From Olsenella sp. An293 (GTDB lineage: Bacteria > Actinomycetota > Coriobacteriia > Coriobacteriales > Atopobiaceae): 64,000 bases of DNA. The notes beneath the pieces are model-generated. The model searched no databases. It saw only the letters and a program-made list of their open reading frames with translations, and was not told the DNA's origin. The first letter of the stretch is position 1. Every line of letters starts with the position of its first letter. Where the stretch lies: positions 124,001 through 188,000 of the forward strand of contig NZ_NFIT01000002.1 in the NCBI RefSeq assembly GCF_002159495.1. Direction: 5' to 3'. Positions 43,441 to 59,131 of this stretch are shown one piece after another. A program made the translations under genes and the position numbers.

Positions 43441-43467
43441 GTGAATTGGGGCCTGTCCCCAATTCAC
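43441..43467. repeat. REP-like palindrome (AATTGGGG type)
   Basis: GTGAATTGGGG and CCCCAATTCAC are exact inverted copies around CCTGT. The same palindrome family recurs at 55420-55489 and 59061-59131. Confidence 0.85.
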
Positions 43468-51205: not shown

Positions 51206-51241
51206 GCGGGCCCGGGCGCCTTTGACGTGCGCCCGGGCCCG
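51206..51241 (+). terminator. Terminator-like hairpin after the surface-protein gene
   Basis: A near-perfect GC-rich stem (51207-51219 with 51229-51241) has a 9-nt loop. The tail is GTCGCTC rather than T-rich, so efficiency is uncertain. Confidence 0.5.
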
Positions 51242-51254
51242 TCGCTCGGTCAGC

Positions 51255-51283
51255 CGTGGAAAAGTGACTGTCACTTTTCCACG
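51255..51283. repeat. REP-like palindrome with GTGACTGTCAC core
   Basis: CGTGGAAAAGTGA and TCACTTTTCCACG are exact inverted copies around CTG. It abuts the stop codon of the convergent minus-strand fusion gene. The core resembles that of the AATTGGGGAC palindromes. Confidence 0.8.
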
Positions 51284-53863
51284 CTAGCAGGTGGCGCCGC
51301 CGGTGACGTCCTTTGCCAGGATGGCCTCTTTGTCGATCGGGGCGGTCAGCAGCTTGTCCTGCACGTAGTCAAAGCCGAGGCGCGCGACGGTGTCGGCAAA
51401 GCGCTCGCCGCTCACGCCCTCGTCGCGGAAGAAGAGGATCGACCGCTCAACGACGTCCATGACCTCCTCCTCGCTGGTGAAGATCTTGTCCAGCGGGATG
51501 CCGTGGGCCGTCTTCTTGCCCCAGCGCCCGCCGATGTAGACCTTGCAGCCCGCAAGCCCCTCGGTCACGGCGCCAAACGGACAGCTGCCCACGCAGCGAC
51601 CGCAGTGGTTGCACAGCGACTCGTCGATGGTGATCTTGCCGTCCGGCCCCACCTGTGCGTCTCCCATGGGGCATGCCTTCACCACCTGGCAGACCTTGCA
51701 CGCGCGGCACTTCTCGAGGTCGACCTGCGGCACGCGCTGCCCGACGATGCCCAGGTCGTTGAGGTCGGGCTTGACGCACATGTTGGGGCAGCCGCCCACG
51801 GCGATCTTGAACTTGTGCGGCAACTCGATGCCGTGGTAGCCCACGTAGAAGCGCTCGTGCAGCTTCTCGGAGAGGTCAAAGGTGTCGATGAGGCCGTACT
51901 GGCAGGTGGTGCCCTTGCAGCTCACGACCGGGCGCACCTTGGAGCCGGTGCCGCCGGCGTCGAGGCCGTGGTCTTGCAGGAAGGCGATGCACGCGTCGAT
52001 CTGCTCGTACTTGACGCCCTGAATCTCCAGCGTGAGGCGCGTGGTCATGGTGACCTCGCCGGAGCCAAAGCGCTCGGCGGCCTCGGCTACGACCTTCTGC
52101 TCTGCCGAGGTCAGCTTGCCGTTGCGCGTGATCACGCGCACGTTGAAGACGTCGTCAAAGCGCTTGTCCTGCAGGCATCCCAGGCCCTTGAGGCGCTTGA
52201 TCTCCGCGGCGGGCAGCTTCGTGCCAGCCGGGCGCGGCACGCGGACCTCGTTGAACGTGATGCCACCCTCGAGTACGCGCGTGTTGGTGTAGCCGGCGGC
52301 CTTGAGGCGGTTCTGCGTAAAGTAGCCGCGCTTGCCCTTGGCGCACACGAGCAGGAGCTTCTCGTCCTTGGCATGGCCGGGCAGGCCATCCGCGCCGATC
52401 TTGGTGAGGTCGGCCCACTCCGCGCCAGGGATGGTGGGCGCAGGCAGCACGTCGATGACCTGGTAGTCCGCGGCGCCGCCGGCGGCGTACTCGGCCGGCG
52501 TGAAGCTCTCGAGCTCGCCTGCGAGCTTGTTCTCCAGGATATAGGCGGTCGTGACCAGCGGGTGGATGGCGGTCGAGAAGGGCGGTGCGTAGGAGAGGTC
52601 CATGAGGTCGAGGTCCTCGACGGCGAGCTTTTGGTAGAGCGCCGTCACCATCACGTCCACGACCTTGTCCACCGCGCCGGCACCGAGCGCCTGCACGCCG
52701 AGCAGGCGGTGCGTCGCGCGGTCCGCAATGAGCTTGATGAAAAAGCTCGAGGAGCCGGGGTAGTAGTGGGCCTTGTCGTCCACCACCGAGACCACGCCCA
52801 CCGGGTCAAAGCCCGCTTCGCGCGCGGCCGCCTCGGTGAGGCCGGTGCGGCCACCGTTGAGCGATGGCAGCAGCCGCACCACGCCGGTTCCGAGCGCGCC
52901 GGGGTAGGCCGTCGGCGTGCCCGTGAGCGTGCGGGCGATCGCGCGACCGGCGATGTTGGCCGTCGATCCCATGGCGCTCCAGAACGGGAGCCCGGTGATG
53001 GCGTTCGTGACCTCGGCGCAGTCGCCGGCGGCGTAGACGTCCGGCAGGTTGGTGGCGCCGAACTCGTCCACGAGCACGCAGCCCTTGAGCGTCTCCACGC
53101 CGGAGCCCTCGAGCCAGCCGGTGTTGGGCCGGATGCCAATGGAGAGGACCACGAGGTCGGCCGGCAGCACGCCCGCGCCGGTCTCCACTCCCTCGGCCTT
53201 GCCGTCGCCAACGATGCCCTTGAGCGGGCACGACGTCATCACGCGCACGCCGGCGGCCTTGAGCTGGCGCTGGGCGAAGCCGGCCATCTCGGGGTCGAAG
53301 ACGTTGGGCAGGATCTGCGGCATCGCGTCGATCACGGTGACGGAGAGGCCACGCGCGAGCAGGTTCTCGGCCACCTCCAGGCCGATGAAGCCGGCACCCA
53401 CCACAACAGCGCGCCGCGCGCCCGCCTCGACGGCCGCGCGGATGGCCTCCGCGTCGTCCGGCGTGCGCACGGTGAAGACGCCGGGCAGGTCGGTCCCGGG
53501 CAGGCCGGCGGGCACAAACGGCGAGGCGCCGGTGGCGATGACGAGCTTGTCGTACTTCTCGCCGTGCTCGGAGCCGTCCTTCTCGCGCACCGTGACCTCG
53601 TGCGCGGCGGCGTCGAGCGCCACCGCCTCCACGCCCGTGCGCACCTCCACGCCGGTGAGCCCCGCGTAGGCGGCCGGCGTGTTCACGATGAGCTCGCCGC
53701 GGGTCTTGATGTCGCCGCCGATGTAGTAGGGCAGCCCGCAGCCCGCGTAGCTGATGTCCTCGCCCTTGGTGACAACGGTGACGTCTGCCGAGCGGTCGCA
53801 GCGCTTGAGCTTGGCCGCAACCTTGGTTCCAGCGGCCACGCCGCCGACGATCAGGTATCTCAT
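51284..53863 (-). CDS. NADH oxidase - rhodanese - sulfite-reductase fusion protein
   Basis: 859-residue fusion. Residues 1-460: FAD/NAD pyridine nucleotide-disulfide reductase of the CoA-disulfide reductase/Nox type (VGGVAAGTK, redox Cys42 in SYAGCGLPYY, GAGFIGLEVAENL). About 465-545: rhodanese-like domain with Cys in LLLVCAKGKRG. About 550-859: siroheme/[4Fe-4S] half-repeat of dissimilatory sulfite reductases, with SCKGTTC and GGCPNMC, then two ferredoxin [4Fe-4S] motifs (CRACKVCQVVKACP and CNHCGRCVGSCP). Predicted to pass electrons from NADH to siroheme and reduce sulfite or a related S/N compound. ATG 53863 has GAGAGGA upstream. Confidence 0.9.
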   Translation of the reverse strand: MRYLIVGGVAAGTKVAAKLKRCDRSADVTVVTKGEDISYAGCGLPYYIGGDIKTRGELIVNTPAAYAGLTGVEVRTGVEAVALDAAAHEVTVREKDGSEHGEKYDKLVIATGASPFVPAGLPGTDLPGVFTVRTPDDAEAIRAAVEAGARRAVVVGAGFIGLEVAENLLARGLSVTVIDAMPQILPNVFDPEMAGFAQRQLKAAGVRVMTSCPLKGIVGDGKAEGVETGAGVLPADLVVLSIGIRPNTGWLEGSGVETLKGCVLVDEFGATNLPDVYAAGDCAEVTNAITGLPFWSAMGSTANIAGRAIARTLTGTPTAYPGALGTGVVRLLPSLNGGRTGLTEAAAREAGFDPVGVVSVVDDKAHYYPGSSSFFIKLIADRATHRLLGVQALGAGAVDKVVDVMVTALYQKLAVEDLDLMDLSYAPPFSTAIHPLVTTAYILENKLAGELESFTPAEYAAGGAADYQVIDVLPAPTIPGAEWADLTKIGADGLPGHAKDEKLLLVCAKGKRGYFTQNRLKAAGYTNTRVLEGGITFNEVRVPRPAGTKLPAAEIKRLKGLGCLQDKRFDDVFNVRVITRNGKLTSAEQKVVAEAAERFGSGEVTMTTRLTLEIQGVKYEQIDACIAFLQDHGLDAGGTGSKVRPVVSCKGTTCQYGLIDTFDLSEKLHERFYVGYHGIELPHKFKIAVGGCPNMCVKPDLNDLGIVGQRVPQVDLEKCRACKVCQVVKACPMGDAQVGPDGKITIDESLCNHCGRCVGSCPFGAVTEGLAGCKVYIGGRWGKKTAHGIPLDKIFTSEEEVMDVVERSILFFRDEGVSGERFADTVARLGFDYVQDKLLTAPIDKEAILAKDVTGGATC

Positions 53864-54003
53864 GGTGTTCCTCTCCTCTTGCGTTGCCTCGCGCAGCGCG
53901 TCCAATTCCATGGTAGGCCGAGCTGGATGTCGTTGTCCTGGGATTTGCGGCAGCGGCGAGGTCTTGGTCGCGTGAGGTCTGAACGTGTTCGGCTGGGAGA
54001 TGT

Positions 54004-54235
54004 CTGCAAAATAGCCCTCCAATCCATTTTCGGCCGGCGCCCGGAACAAAACCGCCCTTCGATCCATGGAAAAATGGGCTATCAGAGTGTCTTTCCGATT
54101 GCCGGCCGATCGGTCAACTGCGATTTTGTTCTGCAGCCTCGGCGAACGCTGCCGCATCGCCTCAAAACCTCATGGATCGAAGCTCGGTTTTGTTCTGTAC
54201 GTCGGCCAAAAATGGATCGGAGGAAGATTTTGCAG
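54004..54235. repeat. 232-bp element with 65-nt imperfect terminal inverted repeats
   Basis: The left arm 54004-54068 and the reverse complement of 54171-54235 agree at about 53-55 of 65 positions. Both arms begin CTGCAAAAT and contain GAACAAAACCG. The 102-nt middle holds one more inverted copy of the GAACAAAA motif. No coding frame is evident. It occupies about half of the 503-bp gap between the divergent fusion gene and the NifX-like gene; the rest shows nothing I can name. Confidence 0.8.
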
Positions 54236-54366
54236 GGTCGCCTGTCCCGACGCTGCGGTCTGGTTCGTCGGCGGTTTGCGCCTGACGTCGCTTGCTGCCA
54301 GAATGGCCTCGTCTAGCAGCGCGGGTGCCGGTCGTGCCGGAACGCCCGCAACGAGAGGAGATTCCC

Positions 54367-54729
54367 ATGAAGGTTGCCATCCCCACCCTCGGCAAGGGTG
54401 GTCTGGACTGCGAGCGCTCCGGTCACTTTGGCCACTGCGACTGCTTCACCGTGGTCGATGTCGAAAACGGCGAGGTGGGCGCCGTGAGCGTCATCGATAA
54501 CCCGCCCCACGAGGAGGGTGGCTGCATGCGTCCCGTGGCGCTGCTCGCCGAGAACGGCATCGACGCCATCGTTGCTGCCGGCATGGGCATGCGCCCCATG
54601 ATGGGTTTCGCGCAGGCGGGCATCACCGTCTTCTTCGAGAACCAGACCCCGGGCGTGGGCGACGTCGCGCAGATGGCCGCCTCCGGAACCCTCCCCGTCA
54701 TGGGCGAGGAGCACGCCTGTCATCACTAG
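54367..54729 (+). CDS. NifX/NifB-C-terminal-like Fe-Mo cofactor family protein
   Basis: 120-residue single-domain protein of the dinitrogenase iron-molybdenum cofactor family: MKVAIPTLGKGGLD, RSGHFGHCDCF and GAVSVIDN at the N-terminus, then a Met-rich GMGMRPMMGF segment. Members bind metal clusters or metal anions and are found in anaerobes without nitrogenase. The C-terminus ends HACHH. ATG 54367 with GAGAGGAG upstream. It is 1 bp from the chelatase-like gene. Confidence 0.88.
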   Translation: MKVAIPTLGKGGLDCERSGHFGHCDCFTVVDVENGEVGAVSVIDNPPHEEGGCMRPVALLAENGIDAIVAAGMGMRPMMGFAQAGITVFFENQTPGVGDVAQMAASGTLPVMGEEHACHH

Positions 54730-54730
54730 C

Positions 54731-55447
54731 GTGTCCGATGCCCTGGTCATAGCCGGCTGTCTCTCAGGCGAGAGTGGCGACGCGGGCGTCATGGCCCTGG
54801 TTGACGAGCTTGGCGCGGCAGTCGGCGCCGACGTGACGCTGCGCGCCCGCACGGGCGGCAGGCCCGTGGGGCGGTCGCTGCCCGAGGTGCTGGTGGACCT
54901 GCGAGAGCGCGGCGCGCGGCGCGCGATCGTGGTGACCACGCACGTGGCCGACGGCCGCTTGCAGCGCGAGGCGGCCGCCGCCGTGCGCGCCGCCGCCTCC
55001 GGCTTCGACGAGCTCCGACTCGCCCCGCCTCTGCTCGCGGACGAGAAGGACCTGGCCGCCGTCGCCCGCGCGCTCGATATGGCGCTGCCCGCGTCCCCCG
55101 GCCGCGTCACCGTCCTTGCCGGACACCGCGGCGCCGAGTGCGAGGCCGCCCTCGCTCGGTTGGAAGCCGCGCTGCGCGACCGTGGTCGCGGCGACGTGCT
55201 GGTTGACACGCCCGAGCGTCTGTCGGCGCGCGTCTCGTCGAGTTCCGAGCGGCAGGTGCTCCTCGCCCCCTTCCTCATGGCCCTTGGCCATCACGCCATT
55301 CACGACGTGCTGGTCGAGCTCCGCGCGGAGCTGGAAGGCGCCGGCCTTGACGTGGCCCCTTGGCCGCACTCCTTGGCCGAGCTCCCCGCCATCCGCGCGC
55401 TCGTCGTCGACCACGCGCTCTGTCAGTTGGGGACAGTCCCCAACTGA
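54731..55447 (+). CDS. CbiK-like sirohydrochlorin chelatase
   Basis: 238-residue protein resembling class II chelatases of the CbiK type, which insert Fe or Co into sirohydrochlorin. Candidate metal-binding His occur in VLAGHRGAE and LGHHAIHDV. Its place next to the siroheme-type fusion enzyme suggests that it makes siroheme for it (inference). GTG start 1 bp after the NifX-like stop. The last eight codons (CQLGTVPN) and the stop are supplied by a REP-like palindrome, so the native C-terminus was replaced or extended. Confidence 0.6.
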   Translation: MSDALVIAGCLSGESGDAGVMALVDELGAAVGADVTLRARTGGRPVGRSLPEVLVDLRERGARRAIVVTTHVADGRLQREAAAAVRAAASGFDELRLAPPLLADEKDLAAVARALDMALPASPGRVTVLAGHRGAECEAALARLEAALRDRGRGDVLVDTPERLSARVSSSSERQVLLAPFLMALGHHAIHDVLVELRAELEGAGLDVAPWPHSLAELPAIRALVVDHALCQLGTVPN

Positions 55448-55489
55448 CAGAAAGGTTTTATGTAAATTGGGGACTGTCCCCAACTAACA
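55420..55489. repeat. Paired REP-like palindromes
   Basis: The first copy, 55420-55450, is a perfect palindrome (TGTCAGTTGGGGAC around A). The second, 55461-55489, is imperfect. The linker AAAGGTTTTAT between them is similar to that of the pair at 59061-59131, so the pair is one composite element of about 70 bp. Confidence 0.85.
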
Positions 55490-59060: not shown

Positions 59061-59131
59061 TGTGAATTGGGGACAGTCCCCAATTCACATAAATGTTTTC
59101 TATAAATTGGGGCCTGTCCCCAATTCGCACA
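59061..59131. repeat. Paired REP-like palindromes inside the dnaK operon
   Basis: First copy 59061-59089 (perfect, TGTGAATTGGGGAC around A), second copy 59101-59131 (imperfect). The pair lies between the grpE stop and the dnaJ start with the same order and linker type (AAATGTTTTC) as the pair at 55420. Confidence 0.85.

Follow-up and report, generated by a model that had tools for sequence, protein, structure and literature searches.

A predicted one-chain NADH-dependent sulfite reductase of Olsenella that may draw on salvaged siroheme precursors

Introduction

What does a protein reduce that joins a persulfide reductase module, a rhodanese and a siroheme sulfite reductase half in a single chain, and where would its siroheme come from in a genome that lacks genes for making it? 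The question is raised by a gene of Olsenella sp. An293 (NCBI RefSeq assembly GCF_002159495.1) within a stretch of 64,000 nucleotides (contig NZ_NFIT01000002.1, positions 124,001 to 188,000 of the forward strand), hereafter the window. An earlier annotation made without database searches, here called the sequence-only reading, had proposed an NADH-linked fusion enzyme of the sulfite reductase type at 51284..53863 and left its substrate open; the fusion is confirmed at exactly these coordinates, on the minus strand, with a length of 859 amino acids. Its residues and its genomic neighbourhoods suggest that it is probably a one-chain sulfite reductase driven by NADH, whose siroheme would come from the salvage of sirohydrochlorin, precorrin-2 or siroheme itself. 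A literature search found no paper combining sulfite reductase and rhodanese with disulfide reductase or siroheme. Should the assignment be true, sulfide production by gut anaerobes of this group would hinge on a cofactor precursor from neighbours or host, a transporter of isobacteriochlorin precursors could be named and tested, and a soluble one-chain NADH route to sulfite reduction would be available together with a natural clostridial split version for comparison.

Results and discussion

Architecture of the fusion protein

Three modules follow one another along the chain, all encoded on the minus strand. The first, residues 1–440 (52544..53863), is an FAD/NADH CoA-(di/per)sulfide reductase module of the CoA-disulfide reductase (CoADR) type, with Pyr_redox_2 (2–286) and Pyr_redox_dim (338–434) above their curated Pfam cut-offs and the active-site Cys42 (53738-53740) in a GCGLPY motif. 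A rhodanese domain (RHD) at about residues 455–540 (52244..52501; PF00581 at 478–535, 23.4 bits against a cut-off of 22.2) carries Cys507 (52343-52345). The siroheme/[4Fe-4S] sulfite reductase half spans residues 561–859 (51287..52183), with NIR_SIR_ferr (572–630) and NIR_SIR (640–838) above curated cut-offs, and contains two ferredoxin-type [4Fe-4S] sites, C719/C722/C725/C731 and C751/C754/C757/C761 (51581..51709). Fer4_6, Fer4_2 and Fer4 exceed their cut-offs at 743–767, and the two-cluster model Fer4_7 (718–765) falls slightly below its own (24.8 versus 27), so that the first cluster is supported by its four cysteines. The sequence-only reading had named the same parts, down to the two ferredoxin clusters, and is borne out. 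The 859-residue start is preferred over a 957-residue open reading frame from 54157, because Met1 is invariant among 52 aligned sequences.

By sequence, the first 540 residues best match the persulfide reductase 6pfz (E 2.5e-92) and the CoA-persulfide reductase 8a56 (E 1.9e-91), and the reductase half searched alone finds the F420-dependent sulfite reductase (Fsr) 7npa (E 5e-35). An AlphaFold2 model built on an alignment of 52 of 81 sequences has a mean predicted local distance difference test score (pLDDT) of 85.2 and a predicted TM-score (pTM) of 0.67, and among the 50 Foldseek matches listed the leader is 8a56 (TMt 0.91). The ratio of non-synonymous to synonymous substitution rates (dN/dS) of the fusion gene is 0.20–0.22 against six near relatives, and the fusion is therefore not a chance product.

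One scan of 84,980 species genomes returned 299 relatives, and counts over 80 refer to the best 80 of these, which come from Olsenella, Thermophilibacter and Collinsella relatives, then from Lachnospiraceae and Oscillospiraceae; 76 of them match residues 1–859. The residue alignment combines the window with 79 loci and part of MjFsr, L057 being left out for an internal stop. GCGLPY and the rhodanese cysteine are common to all 80 loci, and Cys42 and Cys507 are each kept in 80/80 rows, as are the ferredoxin cysteines in the 78 rows with letters there. Within the order Coriobacteriales (247 genomes) there are 37 carriers, with at least 84% identity across the reductase half, comprising 22 of the 23 genomes of the window's genus and 15 genomes of one other family. 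Of 393 genomes belonging to the same class as a clostridial carrier, 96 have a reductase-half homologue (E 1e-20 or better), in most cases a stand-alone protein some 300 residues long. A selection of 60 loci (L104–L163) from these genomes contains four fused genes, and in 16 of the 60 a separate CoADR-rhodanese gene directly adjoins the reductase gene, an arrangement that is a natural split version of the fusion.

Relation to known enzymes

NirB carries an NADH-FAD module and a siroheme half in one chain, a layout shared by the fusion, which differs from it in its intermediate clusters and in having a rhodanese; AsrC works together with AsrA and AsrB. The nearest relatives of the N-terminal 540 residues, with their active-site and rhodanese cysteines, are the NADH persulfide reductases and CoADR-RHD proteins (Npsr 3nta and 6pfz; CoAPR 8a56; the B. 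anthracis CoADR-RHD 3icr), from which the fusion departs in having a sulfite reductase half joined to it or, in split relatives, encoded alongside. In the available portion of Susanti and Mukhopadhyay (2012, PMC3448663), AsrC, or group III Dsr-LP, likewise has a Dsr-like half with a siroheme cluster and two further [4Fe-4S] sites. Fsr is the closest parallel for the reductase half: it too unites the siroheme-site residues, two ferredoxin clusters and a flavin donor module in a single chain, but its donor is an N-terminal F420H2 dehydrogenase (PMC3448663), whereas the fusion has an NADH-type CoADR-rhodanese module, a C-X4-C motif and a terminal cysteine.

Several family assignments were tried and rejected: Fsr itself, since the N half is CoADR-RHD with no F420H2 dehydrogenase and the cluster motif is C-X4-C; AsrC (TIGR02912, 98.7 versus a cut-off of 324.1); NirB (TIGR02374, 219.6 bits over the FAD region versus 578.35); and the CoA-disulfide reductase equivalog TIGR03385 (357.8 versus 578.8).

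The substrate site

In the excerpts available of the Fsr structure paper (7npa, 7np8), Arg355, Arg423, Lys460 and Lys462 of MjFsr bind sulfite, Arg388 is the assimilatory mark where DsrA has a threonine, and the canonical siroheme-cluster motif is C-X5-C-Xn-C-X3-C. The four sulfite-binding residues align with R576, R644, K684 and K686 of the fusion, of which the arginines are kept in 80/80 rows and the lysines in 79/79 rows with letters, and R609, the counterpart of Arg388, is present in 80/80. The siroheme-coupled cluster has its first ligands, C649 and C654, in CKGTTC (51902..51919, minus strand), which reads CKGTTCQYG in all 80 loci with both cysteines invariant (80/80 rows), and its second pair, C692 and C696, in CPNMC (51776..51790, minus strand), part of a GCPN[NM]C motif found in 78/80 loci (C692 in 79/79 and C696 in 78/79 rows with letters). 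As the Fsr residues are conserved, the substrate site is of the sulfite reductase type with a cluster loop one residue short, and the C-X4-C spacing in 80/80 loci is the reason for filing the fusion as a variant rather than as Fsr. The same spacing occurs in 58 of the 60 clostridial loci, 57 of them printed as such; L126 prints as X5 owing to an extra cysteine before the motif and is counted here, and the two exceptions are L128, truncated, and L163, not parsed. Neither this motif nor the terminal cysteine described below had been mentioned in the sequence-only reading.

Neighbouring genes also speak to the substrate. Gene clusters lying no more than 3.5 kb from the 60 clostridial loci include LysR regulators at 22 of them, FecB-type binding proteins at 21 and a YeiH-type membrane protein at seven, all seven having a CoADR-rhodanese partner. 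For each of these three clusters a single member was scanned with Pfam, the YeiH-type one belonging to PF03601, which we take to be the YeiH family. Among the first 81 loci a LysR cluster occurs at 29, usually pointing away from the fused gene (two members by Pfam). For the one LysR neighbour tested, YeiE (8sbh, E 1.6e-15) comes after other LysR proteins among the matches, which makes this neighbour no more than a candidate YeiE orthologue. PMC12880088 describes YeiE and YeiH as a Salmonella system for sulfite stress, and on account of the YeiH-type and LysR neighbourhood sulfite is favoured as the substrate. Together with the conserved Fsr residues, the YeiH-type cluster lends support to the proposed NADH-linked reduction of sulfite.

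Were the fusion instead an NADH-dependent, ammonia-forming nitrite reductase of the NirB kind, one would look for the nitrite reductase signature Lys-x-Asn; what is conserved is the Lys-x-Lys of sulfite reductases and the assimilatory arginine. The sub-threshold NirB match of the FAD region speaks for nitrite, as does the preference of MtFsr, which has a lower Km for nitrite than for sulfite in the excerpts of the Fsr structure paper, and we consider this alternative very improbable.

The terminal cysteine and split relatives

The protein ends in a GGATC tail whose last residue is Cys859 (51287..51301, minus strand; motif GGA[TS]C). An ATC or ASC ending is found in 76/80 rows, and the other four are cut short where the match or the contig ends. 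The pLDDT falls below 50 at residues 857–859. A conserved cysteine at or beside the C terminus, on a flexible arm, characterises DsrC, and the tail may be a redox arm of that kind.

The clostridial relatives allow the tail to be compared with the presence of the N-terminal module. A tree of 74 rows combines the window and 14 of the 80 fused loci with 59 from the clostridial selection of 60, L153 being dropped as ambiguous with a probable frameshift. In 34 rows both a CoADR-rhodanese partner and the cysteine tail are present and in 35 neither is, so that the tail is found in 34/35 rows with the partner versus 4/39 without; the exceptions are L137 (partner without tail) and L108, L140, L142 and L143 (tail without partner). 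The best tree requires eight partner changes and gives eight contrasts, but independent contrasts on starred branches number only two, so that the link has no phylogenetic significance: the counts speak strongly for it, the tree only weakly. The pattern suggests that the terminal cysteine may work with the CoADR-rhodanese module, perhaps as a sulfur-carrying arm.

This bears on a reading in which the protein is mainly a reductase of CoA-persulfide, polysulfide or thiosulfate-derived sulfane sulfur, with the reductase half an accessory electron sink or itself acting on persulfide and free sulfite not the physiological substrate. The complete CoADR-RHD half with its invariant Cys42 and Cys507 fits such a role, and so does a terminal cysteine that tracks the CoADR-RHD partner; the retention of all five Fsr active-site residues and the YeiH-type neighbours, which indicate sulfite, argue the other way, and we regard this reading as unlikely.

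In three clostridial loci (L113, L134 and L136) a standalone reductase gene stands beside a CcdA-like membrane protein and a thioredoxin-fold lipoprotein, both named from a look at the sequences; these loci have no adjoining CoADR-rhodanese partner and no cysteine tail.

Siroheme supply

The window's genome (2.31 Mb, 99.75% complete, one NIR_SIR match) contains no recognisable HemB, HemC, CobA or SirC, in a search that did not cover HemA, HemL and HemD. Judged by these missing genes the organism is unable to make siroheme de novo, and a complete pathway was rejected as the source. The sequence-only reading had called for a look for siroheme synthesis genes elsewhere in the genome and had named their absence as its own refutation; to the letter, that absence is what was found. 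The comparative data described here nevertheless lead us to late-precursor salvage rather than to loss of siroheme.

The gene nearest to this question encodes a CbiK-like chelatase of 238 amino acids (54731..55447, plus strand; PF06180, E 2.5e-12, 47.1 bits versus a cut-off of 26.2), which scores 45.1 against the NCBIfam cobaltochelatase model, below the cut-off of 400. His132 and His188, presumably the CbiK metal ligands, are invariant in 24/24 aligned homologues, and dN/dS of the gene is 0.26–0.35 against six relatives. All 22 carriers in the genus have CbiK, although two of the matches, those of G039 and G143, fall below the curated cut-off, and it is missing from the sole non-carrier, G124. 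From the invariant histidines, the dN/dS values and this co-occurrence it follows that CbiK is constrained and tied to the fusion; in most loci of the genus it is the only siroheme-pathway gene beside the fusion, and the match of G037 lies in a corrin operon, away from it. That a CbiK-like chelatase is divergent from the fusion had been stated before and is correct, but a NifX-like gene stands between the two. The further suggestion that this chelatase could make the siroheme may hold for the last step and not for the earlier ones, for which HemB, HemC, CobA and SirC are absent.

Across the 37 Coriobacteriales carriers HemB was found in none, HemC in 4, CobA in 7, SirC in 15 and CbiK in 33; the same searches matched in 9 (SirC) to 13 (CobA) of 14 control genomes, and CbiK in 6. 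The 11 clostridial carriers tested have HemC, CobA and SirC in 10 and HemB in 9. Late siroheme genes also lie beside the fusion, as read from translated sequence with hidden Markov model matches for some of the genomes: CbiK-SirC, HemC and CobA-HemD in L028; CbiK-SirC and CobA-HemD in L025; HemC and CobA-HemD, with a CbiK match, in L032; SirC and CobA-HemD in L033; and CbiK-SirC in L020 and L022, whose genomes are without HemC or CobA. Clostridial reductase genes have siroheme-pathway neighbours in L109, L145, L162 and L106 (by sequence, and by Pfam for the SirC of L109).

A different way to account for the missing genes is that in Coriobacteriales without siroheme synthesis the reductase half holds no siroheme, having a bare [4Fe-4S] cluster or another tetrapyrrole, and that the C-X4-C motif reflects this change. 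The lack of HemB in 37/37 carriers and the non-canonical motif are what such a protein would predict, yet the motif is shared by the clostridial carriers, and nearly all of those tested have the siroheme genes just counted; siroheme genes lie near the reductase gene in both groups, and the substrate residues are unchanged. We hold this explanation to be quite unlikely; siroheme loss as the main reason for C-X4-C was rejected, given that the motif is equally found in clostridial carriers whose genomes contain siroheme genes.

The favoured alternative, salvage of a late precursor, has parallels. The window's genome has the gene content of a salvager, with CbiK kept and the four searched upstream genes absent, HemA, HemL and HemD lying outside that search. 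In the accessible part of Shelton et al. (2018, PMC6461909) salvage of 5-aminolevulinic acid is shown for three species, and Collinsella aerofaciens is proposed as a precorrin-2 auxotroph in the portions available of PMC6593275 and PMC8123684. The tetrapyrrole salvagers of PMC6461909 and PMC6593275 similarly miss early steps and keep the late pathway, but in the text available they are defined for cobamides, whereas here the end product would be siroheme for one enzyme.

A candidate importer

A candidate for the uptake step came from the one carrier of the 37 that has none of HemB, HemC, CobA, SirC and CbiK (G200), in which a FecBCD-type ATP-binding cassette (ABC) operon lies directly downstream of the fusion (locus L006, assigned to G200 by its contig position and a 100% match). 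In L048 and in L174, the locus of G134, the gene that directly follows the fusion encodes a related binding protein. Orthologues of the binding protein are present in 32/37 carriers at 50–62% identity, G200 itself aside and with the G159 copy split over two contigs; in the window's genome the gene lies on contig C33 (82229-83314) and its product is 58% identical to that of L006, with a permease at 75% and an ATPase at 56%. The transporter occurs in 32/33 hemC-negative and 0/4 hemC-positive carriers (Fisher p 7.6e-5, relatedness not corrected). Of the 96 genomes of the order that have CbiK or the fusion, 73 give a strong match, compared with 0 of the 151 that have neither, where G032 and G046 give two weak matches; weak matches (G032, G046 and G055) were left out of the counts. 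Among 41 non-carriers with a strong match, a CbiK start lies within 5 kb in 38. Sampled transporter loci also have corrin genes nearby, namely CbiF-CbiG and CbiH in L184, CbiH in L183 and L186, CobB in L186, CbiD in L187 and CbiL in L189, and two small proteins encoded in the interval that separates CbiK from the transporter have no Pfam match. A transporter of sirohydrochlorin or precorrin-2 would tie together the co-occurrence, the corrin neighbours and the reported auxotrophy. In the literature collection searched, there was one match each: for uptake of siroheme or sirohydrochlorin, a paper concerning Aspergillus, and for uptake of precorrin-2 or sirohydrochlorin, a review mentioning precorrin-2 auxotrophs.

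The main rival to siroheme-precursor import, and to the salvage part of the proposal only, is that the transporter takes up a corrinoid, heme or an iron chelate and is unconnected with siroheme. Its best permease model is BtuC, below cut-off (203.4 versus 334), and a B12 importer beside corrin genes would be unsurprising; against this stand its absence from all four hemC-positive carriers, its place directly downstream of the fusion in three loci, and the lack of strong matches in the 151 genomes with neither CbiK nor the fusion. We put this rival not far short of an even chance.

FecBCD-type ABC genes also lie near clostridial reductase genes, with a permease cluster in 20/60 loci; loci of this kind include L104, L116–L118, L148–L152, L154, L156, L157 and L159.

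Proposed mechanism and points against it

For a sulfite reductase fed by precursor salvage, the steps would be as follows. NADH would reduce the FAD of the CoADR-type module, and electrons would pass by way of the two ferredoxin clusters to the siroheme-[4Fe-4S] centre, where, as the conserved residues suggest, sulfite would be reduced to sulfide. The likeliest role of Cys507, Cys42 and a mobile Cys859 would be to trap a product or intermediate containing sulfane sulfur and reduce it, in the manner of NADH persulfide reductases, a step that we propose with less assurance; an intermediate carried by the rhodanese, as the sequence-only reading had it, is possible. Co-occurrence and synteny point to a late precursor, most likely sirohydrochlorin or precorrin-2, being imported through the FecBCD-type transporter of contig C33, and to the adjacent CbiK-like protein as the one that would insert iron.

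A wider picture, which we offer tentatively and as less probable than the assignment itself, is that gut Coriobacteriales are siroheme-precursor auxotrophs with a dedicated FecBCD-family importer of sirohydrochlorin, precorrin-2 or siroheme. Some species would then insert cobalt into the macrocycle for B12 and others iron for an NADH-driven sulfite reductase, and the C-terminal cysteine would pass sulfur from the siroheme site to the built-in rhodanese and persulfide reductase, a new one-chain chemistry.

Several observations weigh against the proposal. The cluster motif is not the canonical one, as all four cysteines are present but their spacing differs; the siroheme loop (647–653) is poorly modelled, with pLDDT below 50; and the 50 listed Foldseek matches all concern the N half, with none for the reductase half. 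The nitrite preference of MtFsr leaves sulfite unsettled and nitrite possible. On the side of supply, the four hemC-positive carriers are also without HemB and would therefore need another import, G158, a carrier with CbiK only, has no transporter, and hemC is present in 6 of the 41 transporter-bearing non-carriers. Orthology between the clostridial and coriobacterial transporters was rejected (permease identity about 29–35%, no match for the binding protein).

Other features of the locus

The NifX-like protein between fusion and chelatase (54367..54729, plus strand) belongs to the dinitrogenase Fe-Mo cofactor family (PF02579, E 1.8e-18) and is divergent to the fusion, with its place supported by synteny. 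It is 88–98% identical across the Olsenella-type loci where it is found and is also present in L025, L029 and L032; in L110 an open reading frame that looks NifX-like by sequence is found a few kb away from the split genes.

A 1029-residue open frame (51227-54316, plus strand) runs antisense across the entire fusion gene and is read as a GC-rich shadow frame rather than as a gene.

A palindromic repeat, TTGGGGACAGTCCC, occurs in the window at 55427-55443, 55467-55483, 59067-59083, 59107-59123 and 43446-43462, giving 10 strand matches (five sites) with at most two mismatches versus 0.37 expected. One of the copies extends into the cbiK-like gene at its 3′ end, so that the last residues of the product, QLGTVPN, come from the repeat.

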